The notes under the pieces were generated by a model. It did no database searches and was not told where the DNA came from. It worked only from the letters and a program-made list of their open reading frames with translations. The position numbers and the translations under genes are program-made. A stretch of 64,000 bases of DNA, taken from assembly GCF_038725785.1 (NCBI RefSeq), contig NZ_CP109796.1, positions 3,658,001-3,722,000 of the forward strand, read 5' to 3'. Within the stretch, counting starts at the first letter, position 1. Each line of letters begins with the position of its first letter. Positions 10,465-13,941 of this stretch are shown in pieces. The DNA is from Termitidicoccus mucosus. GTDB lineage: Bacteria > Verrucomicrobiota > Verrucomicrobiia > Opitutales > Opitutaceae.

Positions 10465-11394
10465 TCAAACGGGAAACTCGCAACCCACCGCCGCCTCGCC
10501 GCCCTCCGACCAGCTCAGCAGCGCGCCCGGCTCCGCGCCGTCCACCGATAACATTGCAAGCCCCATGCACTTCGCCAGCCCGCTGCCCTCGTCGGTGCGC
10601 GCCATCGAGCGCAACTCCCCCACTTTCCGTCCGCCGGCAAATAATCCCGCCGGCAACACCCGCTCCGGCGATGCGTCCGGACCGCCGCCCCGCGCCTCCT
10701 CCCAGCGCACGCGCCACAAGCGCCGCCGCACGCGTCCCAGCGACTTGAGCCGCGAGATCACCTCCTGCCCGAGGTAGCAGCCCTTGGTGTAGGAAATCGC
10801 GTCGCGCTCCAGCCCGGCTTCATTCGGCAAATCTCCCGGCCCCGCGTCGCGCGGCACCATCGGCACGCCCGCCTCAATGCGCCTCCGCTCCATCTCCGAA
10901 AAGCCGACTTCCTCCGCTTCGCTCAAAAACTCACAGCCCGCTTCCGGCTCTGCGTCCACCGGGCGCAGCCACTCCCAACACTCGCCGCCTCCGCGCCGCC
11001 CGCGAAACATCACGCCGCCGCCCTGTTTTCGCAGCTCACTCACCACGGGGCCCCCGATATCCAGCAAACAAACCCCATTCCACCGCGCGGTTTCATCCTC
11101 CACCACCACGTCGTCCGCCACGATATACCGCTCCAGCCGTTCCCGAATCGCCTGCCCGCAGCCCTCATAACTCGCCAAAACCCACTCTGCCTCCTTCACC
11201 CTGAACAAAAAACCGTCCGCCTCCACCCGTCCTTTTTGGTTCAACCATAATCCATACACGACATCCTGAAGGCCAATAGGTTTCAGATCCTGCGTAAACT
11301 GTCCCTGCAAAAATTCCGGGGCATCCAGACCGGAAATCCGTAAAAATGCGGCGGGCCGATAGTGAAATACGCGGACATGTTTCCCAAAAATCAT
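10465..11394 (-). CDS. ygfZ: YgfZ/GcvT-like folate-binding protein
   Basis: Protein of 309 residues related to the aminomethyltransferase fold. YgfZ proteins use tetrahydrofolate to support Fe-S cluster enzyme maturation or repair. The diagnostic C-terminal signature is present as YTKGCYLGQEVISR (K-G-C-Y-x-G-Q-E), and the N-terminal segment LRISGLDAPEFLQGQFTQDL is typical of the family. Its neighbour miaB is itself an Fe-S enzyme whose activity depends on YgfZ in E. coli, so the pairing is meaningful. The gene lies 75 bp upstream of miaB on the same strand. Confidence 0.92.
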   Translation of the reverse strand: MIFGKHVRVFHYRPAAFLRISGLDAPEFLQGQFTQDLKPIGLQDVVYGLWLNQKGRVEADGFLFRVKEAEWVLASYEGCGQAIRERLERYIVADDVVVEDETARWNGVCLLDIGGPVVSELRKQGGGVMFRGRRGGGECWEWLRPVDAEPEAGCEFLSEAEEVGFSEMERRRIEAGVPMVPRDAGPGDLPNEAGLERDAISYTKGCYLGQEVISRLKSLGRVRRRLWRVRWEEARGGGPDASPERVLPAGLFAGGRKVGELRSMARTDEGSGLAKCMGLAMLSVDGAEPGALLSWSEGGEAAVGCEFPV

Positions 11395-11458: not shown

Positions 11459-11490
11459 TTGACGAAGACCCGCCAATGTTATCTCTTGGC
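11459..11490 (+). promoter_or_regulatory. Promoter candidate for small RNA copy 1
   Basis: TTGACG (-35) at 11459-11464 and an extended -10, TGtTATCTC, at 11477-11485, preceded by an A/T-rich stretch. TTGAC begins 31 bp before the conserved CAACATC start of the repeat unit, the same distance as in copy 2. Confidence 0.5.
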
Positions 11491-11597
11491 AACATCAAAT
11501 TTCACTTCTCCCGCATAGCGGGAGTTTTGGGGTAACTAAGAAAGCAAATGGCCGGTCGCTTAGGGGTAGGCGACCGGCCAACTTTTTATCCGGATTC
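11490..11597 (+). ncRNA. Candidate small RNA, copy 1 of tandem pair
   Basis: A 108-bp unit repeated almost exactly at 11863-11970 (one mismatch near the 3' end). It holds a short perfect hairpin, CTCCCGC-ata-GCGGGAG (11508-11524), an unpaired linker, then an 11-bp stem TGGCCGGTCGC/GCGACCGGCCA with a 10-nt loop (11549-11580) followed by TTTTT (11583-11587), which is a standard intrinsic terminator. The linker CTAAG (11536-11540) could pair with CTTAG in the terminator loop. It contains no convincing reading frame. I do not recognise a named RNA family. A riboswitch or attenuator is the main alternative, although copy 1 has no gene close downstream. Confidence 0.6.
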
Positions 11598-11831
11598 AGA
11601 GATCGTCGAACATAGGCCGCGAAACCCCATTTCCTATCTGACCCGCAGGCACTGCTGAGCGGCCTCTTTTCCACTCGCTTCGAGTCCCCGCCCTCTCAGT
11701 CACCAACCCATCTTTTCCAAGATGCTTTGCAAAACGGTTCTCCTTGCCTTCGGCAATTGAAAAATATTCAATCACAAGATACTATATTACAGTCGCTTAA
11801 ATATGCTAAATCGCTTTTTTCAAAAAAAGCA
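11598..11831. other. Intergenic spacer between the two small RNA units
   Basis: No supported gene here. A weak hairpin ACTCG-ctt-CGAGT occurs near 11672-11684, and the 3' half is A/T-rich, feeding into the promoter of copy 2. Confidence 0.5.
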
Positions 11832-11863
11832 TTGACCGAAGCCCGATAATTTCTTCTTCTCAC
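11832..11863 (+). promoter_or_regulatory. Promoter candidate for small RNA copy 2
   Basis: TTGACC at 11832-11837 lies 31 bp before the conserved unit start, as in copy 1, again preceded by a poly-A/T tract. The -10 region is less clear than in copy 1. Confidence 0.4.
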
Positions 11864-11970
11864 AACATCAAATTTCACTTCTCCCGCATAGCGGGAGTTT
11901 TGGGGTAACTAAGAAAGCAAATGGCCGGTCGCTTAGGGGTAGGCGACCGGCCAACTTTTTGTCCGGATTC
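11863..11970 (+). ncRNA. Candidate small RNA, copy 2 of tandem pair
   Basis: Second 108-bp unit, identical to 11490-11597 except for one base. The hairpins are at 11881-11897 and 11922-11953, with TTTTT at 11956-11960. It ends 83 bp before the ABC-F start codon, so read-through control (attenuation) of that gene is a possible alternative to a free small RNA. Confidence 0.6.

Positions 11971-12042: not shown

Positions 12043-13941
<1,899 letters not shown>

Follow-up and report, generated by a model that had tools for sequence, protein, structure and literature searches.

Two near-identical stretches of DNA, lying one behind the other ahead of a gene for an ABC-F type ATPase, raise the question of whether they are copies of a small RNA gene, a control element of the gene that follows or a repeat that acts at the level of DNA. 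We addressed this question in a window of 64,000 nt of the Termitidicoccus mucosus genome (Opitutaceae; NZ_CP109796.1, positions 3,658,001 to 3,722,000), to which all plain coordinates below refer. The original prediction had described two 108-bp units that differ at one base and follow a TTGAC box at equal distance. Comparison of the two, at 11490-11597 and 11863-11970 on the forward strand, confirms this: the sole difference is position 11588 (A in copy 1, G in copy 2), and TTGAC begins at 11459 and 11832, 31 bp ahead of either unit. The interval given for the pair, 11490-11970, does contain both units but leaves the first TTGAC box outside. Divergence of the upstream DNA, likewise predicted, is evident, with 18/31 identical positions between TTGAC and unit and 16/60 in the preceding 60 bp; DNA on the 5' and the 3' side of both units has diverged. 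A repeat search of the window returns the pair as one repeat family (D1; 139 nt, 90%).

Either unit contains the expected small hairpin and intrinsic terminator, namely a 7-bp hairpin, a 14-bp terminator hairpin and then T5, and the terminators are recovered by a terminator scan. In copy 1, the -35-like TTGAC box (11459-11463) is followed by a -10-like element, TATCTCT (11480-11486), placed by column counts relative to TTGAC, and the predicted RNA would run from about 11490-11495 to 11587. It comprises a 5' hairpin, CTCCCGC-ATA-GCGGGAG (11508-11524), a near-invariant linker, TTTTGGGGTAACTAAGAAAGCAAA, that holds a first GGGGTA motif (11525-11548, columns of the family alignment A1), and a terminator hairpin with a GGGG loop, part of a second GGGGTA, and its T-run (11549-11587). 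The corresponding parts of copy 2 are TTGAC at 11832-11836, the 5' hairpin at 11881-11897 and the linker at 11898-11921, both identical in sequence to copy 1, and the terminator hairpin with T-run at 11922-11960. Model R1 of the RNA matches 11491-11586 (C1:3669491-3669586) and 11864-11959 (C1:3669864-3669959), and the fold of the 101 nt from 11490 beats 200/200 shuffles (z -6.6). Beyond the predicted RNA end, weak DNA conservation around CCGGATTC is seen at 11588-11597, at 11961-11970 and in relatives.

The original prediction proposed a search for homologous RNAs in Opitutaceae. With 11459-11605 as BLASTN query, a match is present in 194/200 genomes of this family and in 49/49 genera, and matching genomes hold one to six matches each. 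Across the phylum, model R1 matches 62/387 genomes, 37 of the same family and 25 of other families of its order, Opitutales, with none outside the order among the matches; the misses named include one genome of the same order, and 305 further misses were counted. A second model, R2, derived from 35 order-wide sequences, matches 137/223 genomes and 65/84 genera of the order, own family included; among 20 named misses (66 more were counted), 13 genomes measure 0.8-1.5 Mb and 7 measure 2.2-3.7 Mb. Order genomes of ~1 Mb, from families f96-f99, are among the listed misses, and their lack of a match would suit loss through genome reduction. Applied to the phylum, R2 matches 62/374 genomes, of which the 3 outside the order are marginal (E 6.5e-4 to 6.9e-3) and were taken as chance rather than as remote homologues. 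The exact 21-base linker pattern occurs in at least 119 stretches of named genomes; 80 of them were listed, with titles such as Opitutaceae, Opitutae, Opitutia or Verrucomicrobia, a few reading 'bacterium' and one Parcubacteria, and R1 confirms the RNA in 80/80. In the Parcubacteria-titled contig (LBRC01000022.1, 816-910), a full Opitutaceae-type unit lies close to the contig end, for which an assembly or binning error is more plausible than transfer. Comparison with Rfam, also proposed originally, yields no family for the units: none of the 4227 families of Rfam 15 matches the window at the gathering threshold, and at E<=5 the single weak hit over four unit-bearing loci (ar14, E 2.4) falls outside the unit. 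The literature searched, including the accessible part of PMC4959528, contained no description of an Opitutales RNA family of this kind.

Alignments show the two predicted hairpins to be free to change in sequence while their pairing is kept. In 56 family sequences (A1), 99.7% of the cells of both hairpins are paired and 13/21 pairs have changed on both sides, with 0/500 shuffles attaining any of five covariation measures. The compensatory changes by which the predicted stems could be judged are therefore present in both, at 4/7 pairs of the 5' hairpin and 9/14 of the terminator stem. Two outcomes named in advance as refuting the prediction, a lack of homologous RNAs in relatives and a lack of compensatory stem changes, were thus checked and not observed. 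An alignment of the order (A3; 35 rows, 11 from the own family, sigma-54-type paralogues left out) raises the count for the terminator stem to 12/14 pairs with both-side changes in 108 cells and gives a covariation score of 0.654 versus 0.178 for shuffled controls, although the outermost terminator pair is broken in 18/35 rows. The 5' hairpin is found in 34/35 rows, being weak in one and absent in one row that starts inside it, and its loops are frequently of GNRA or UACG type. A further element of the original prediction, pairing of CTAAG in the linker with CTTAG in the terminator loop, is not supported: the sequence permits it, but 0/5 pairs show a both-side change, and four of the five are unpaired in 7, 1, 3 and 1 of the 56 sequences. 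Two other helices were discarded as well, an outer helix AUUUCA/UGGGGU of the minimum-energy fold (paired in 48% of cells, not conserved) and a 5-pair hairpin proposed by RNAalifold within the family linker (0 both-side changes, no column-for-column carry-over to the order alignment).

Conservation extends to the presumptive promoters. TTGAC precedes 71/74 family copies (BLASTN, first batches of loci), at 69-75 nt from the GGGGTAAC anchor in 66 copies and at 56-60 nt in 5. At a fixed distance from TTGAC lies a -10-like consensus, TAYYNCT, with its last T kept in 67/71; it bears little likeness to TATAAT, and the TATCTCT of copy 1 is one base closer to TTGAC than this consensus. We infer a transcription start near 11490-11495. 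A promoter motif and an intrinsic terminator that are conserved together with the RNA characterize a stand-alone sRNA gene, and both are apparent here from sequence comparison. The duplicated small-RNA transcription unit of the original prediction is accordingly supported, by its presence in 194/200 genomes, covariation in both stems and TTGAC in 71/74 copies, while the pseudoknot and read-through into the ABC-F gene (see below) are not.

Among 115 distinct units of the family in the loci retrieved, the promoter pattern tracks the genomic home. In the ygfZ/DAHP synthase home, 58/59 units carry TTGAC. Copies in the phoH home carry an ECF-like element in 9/12 cases, by a pattern that was widened after the sequences had been inspected and is partly fitted (its strict form is found in 3/8 phoH-linked copies of the second batch), and the other 3 have none of the three patterns. 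Next to a GH3-family gene, 7/7 units show a sigma-54-like -24/-12 element (TGGCAC-N5-TTGC-like, a consensus applied to the same sequences that suggested it; the copies in the window are not concerned). The 37 units in other homes divide into 22 with TTGAC, 7 with a sigma-54-like element (one with both), 1 with an ECF-like element and 8 with none. In 95-nt stretches drawn at random from these loci, the three patterns occur at 5.9% (TTGAC), 0.5% (ECF-like) and 1.8% (sigma-54-like). In a longer class of paralogues, additional sequence separates the linker motif from the terminator, and 9/9 copies carry a sigma-54-like element; in the tandem copies of one other family of the order (L120, L121), TTGGCAC is present and the sigma-54 pattern failed. 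Sigma-54 is encoded in the own genome, that is, the genome of the window, in which we also searched for CsrA, SpoVG and Hfq. Taken as promoters, these motifs would give the family several sigma-factor inputs. Close to two of the phoH-linked copies, at L270 and L280, there are also relatives of a response regulator and of a histidine kinase (Pfam for L270), which might control the ECF-type promoter.

Could the units instead be leaders of the genes that follow them? In the window, copy 2 is followed by the ABC-F type ATPase gene (12043-13941, forward strand; PF00005, PF12848, PF16326), and the gene on the other side is a divergent one for a ygfZ-like folate-binding protein (10465-11394, reverse strand; PF01571). 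Over 66 family loci, some of which span just 1.5 kb per side so that all counts are lower bounds, the ygfZ-like gene is found upstream in divergent orientation in 47, a DAHP synthase gene follows in the same orientation as the unit in 42, and an ABC-F homologue follows in the same orientation in 4 and in the opposite one in 1. Three of the four are the window and two further loci from its genus; the fourth, L064, has the homologue together with DAHP synthase. Read-through control of the ABC-F gene, which the original prediction had considered, is not supported by these counts; the ABC-F ATPase is a neighbour outside the RNA system, and we treat the ygfZ-like gene as a conserved neighbour without claiming it as a member. 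In its general form, a cis-acting leader would control the downstream gene by conditional termination (for ABC-F in the window, DAHP synthase in the majority of relatives and PhoH at another site), as the 42/66 loci with DAHP synthase and the position of PhoH downstream of the second class might suggest. Such a leader is nevertheless improbable: the three homes have different downstream genes, the next gene is on the opposite strand at 6/7 GH3-linked sites (ORF calls; L266 is the exception), copy 1 in the window precedes a second full unit, and among the helices examined no conserved alternative partner was found for the terminator stem. Other families of the order have different neighbours again, one of them, for instance, dciA, thyA and folA. 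Elsewhere in the own genome, a third copy sits between the genes for an FGGY-type kinase and a carbohydrate phosphorylase, and a fourth match is longer and weaker (E 5.4e-6). That matches recur one to six times per genome, that tandem copies are near-identical with diverged flanks, that weak DNA conservation continues directly 3' of the T-run, that 8/115 units, in other homes, lack all three promoter patterns and that some units have no conserved neighbourhood could all be read as signs not of an RNA gene but of a mobile repeat (MITE- or REP-like) or another element that acts as DNA. We consider this barely credible, given that many copies hold the same genomic homes across genera, that compensatory changes preserve the RNA stems and that the promoter boxes remain in register; in addition, the exact 19-base linker pattern has 0 matches in viral contigs.

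What an RNA of this type might contact is best approached through its most constant part. One copy of GGGGUA lies in the linker and another in the terminator loop, and both are nearly constant; in A3 the loop motif is invariant and the linker TGGGGTAA is found in 31/35 rows, the A-rich stretch of the linker also being near-constant. In the sigma-54-type paralogues, the loop motif reads GGGGTT in 5/9. The loop GGGG is predicted to be unpaired in 56/56 rows of A1 and in 34/34 scorable rows of A3, whereas the linker GGGG has a mean unpaired probability of 0.31 in A1 (above 0.5 in 12/56 rows) and 0.38 in A3 (12/34 rows). For the unit of the window, the linker GGGG is predicted to be largely paired, by a helix that itself lacks conservation (48% of cells). 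Given how often the linker motif is predicted to be paired, the motif in the terminator loop appears better placed as first contact. Around 558 start codons, predicted by crude ORF calls over 864 kb of own-genome sequence, words complementary to the motif show no enrichment, and some are depleted (TACCCC 13 versus 12.1 shuffled, ACCCCA 9 versus 24.0, CCCCAA 16 versus 43.2), which weakens the case for many mRNA targets. Since these complements are not enriched and the linker motif is often paired, a protein partner is kept in play. The two motifs would then titrate or recruit an RNA-binding protein in the manner of CsrB/RsmZ, with another protein or motif, and the presence of a short motif twice, once in a hairpin loop, between freely changing stems is in keeping with this, as is the CsrA gene of the own genome. 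Several observations make this reading less likely than not: conservation extends to the A-rich linker part, the linker motif is frequently predicted to be paired, and GGA in the window's unit is found solely inside the paired 5' stem and in no loop, on which ground we rejected CsrA titration. SpoVG was rejected as partner as well, no SpoVG being found in the own genome, where the proteins otherwise searched for were CsrA and Hfq.

In our preferred interpretation, which we hold with about equal belief and doubt, the units belong to a family of trans-acting, probably Hfq-independent sRNAs with several sigma-factor inputs that act through base pairing. As read from the conserved sequence, the units would be duplicates of a single gene, with a promoter and a terminator to itself, that encodes a regulatory RNA of ~95 nt; the tandem pair would raise the dosage of this one RNA. 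To judge from the promoter motifs, paralogues place the same core behind ECF-type and sigma-54-type promoters, so that different signals could feed one RNA activity. The RNA would use its G-rich motifs and A-rich linker to pair with C/U-rich stretches of other RNAs, probably with no need for Hfq. An Hfq-dependent trans-acting sRNA presupposes Hfq in the genome; here the best match to PF17209 scores 9.7 bits against a cut-off of 27, in a search that exceeded the cut-off in 5/14 control genomes. A more far-reaching version, which seems unlikely to us, casts the RNA core as an integrator: housekeeping-, ECF- and sigma-54-type promoters would each drive a paralogue, and the twin GGGGUA motifs would act on one common partner rather than on individual mRNAs. 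This partner might be an RNA-binding protein or the translation machinery (tRNA CCA ends, the ribosomal anti-Shine-Dalgarno). The motif is predicted to pair with a ribosomal 3' end at -6.1 to -6.6 kcal/mol versus -17.3 for a full Shine-Dalgarno sequence, and with an E. coli-type tRNA-His tail at -9.8 to -10.1 kcal/mol; contact with either is speculation. The 16S 3'-end pattern GGATCACCTCCTTT had no exact match in the own genome. To our knowledge, a global regulatory RNA of the integrator type has no equivalent among catalogued sRNAs.

We class the Opitutales RNA with the trans-acting multicopy sRNAs, a known kind, as a new family with unusual wiring. The Qrr sRNAs of Vibrio are encoded by several near-identical genes with sigma-54 promoters, and multiple similar genes and sigma-54 promoters are what the Opitutales RNA has in common with them; it differs in that a sigma-54-like element occurs in just one class, that no Hfq over cut-off was found in the own genome and that Rfam gives no match. 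The core of the CsrA binding site is GGA, and CsrB/RsmZ carry several GGA motifs in hairpin loops. With these RNAs the Opitutales family shares a repeated G-rich motif, once in a hairpin loop, but it is only ~95 nt long, has two motifs per RNA and keeps GGA outside the loops. The NgncR_162/163 of Neisseria are reportedly a tandem pair unrelated in sequence. They are described as sibling sRNAs in the accessible text of PMC9973317, and, as far as that text goes, the likeness is that of an sRNA pair and the main difference is the multi-promoter paralogue set of Opitutales. NfeR1 of Alphaproteobacteria (alpha-r14/cuckoo) has an ultraconserved short motif, CCUCCUCCC, in unpaired regions of highly different stems, according to the available part of PMC10746234. 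The homologous CcsR1-4 comprise several copies, use an alternative sigma factor promoter (RpoHI/RpoHII) and are co-transcribed with a DUF1127 gene, according to the available part of PMC10253847. Within the reach of these partial accounts, alpha-r14/cuckoo RNAs resemble the Opitutales family in a constant short motif, variable stems, multiple copies and alternative sigma promoters, but their CCUCCUCCC is an anti-Shine-Dalgarno, C-rich and on three hairpins, whereas the Opitutales motif is G-rich, and CcsR RNAs differ by DUF1127 co-transcription, whereas the Opitutales copies each seem to own a promoter. The covariance model RF02344, for which CCUCCUCCC in unpaired regions is the hallmark, matched none of the units (window at gathering threshold, four loci at E<=5), and the loop and linker motif here is GGGGUA.

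Small RNAs of Verrucomicrobiota are little charted; the table of one review, in its accessible part, counts 8 sRNAs across the entire PVC group (PMC9029176). A widespread, covarying family with fixed genomic homes offers a direct way in, and our alignments are usable as a start for an Rfam entry. If the proposed arrangement is true, one core behind three promoter classes would amount to one RNA activity wired to separate signals without a recognisable Hfq. Tandem copies are also found in other genomes. In one genome (G020), four copies of a divergent subtype lie within 46 kb (C1:4690441-4736423; L065, L066 and L067, the last being the locus with the weak 5' hairpin in A3); their 5' hairpin begins with GTTCCCGC or similar, and the genes nearby include a sulfatase and an MFS transporter.
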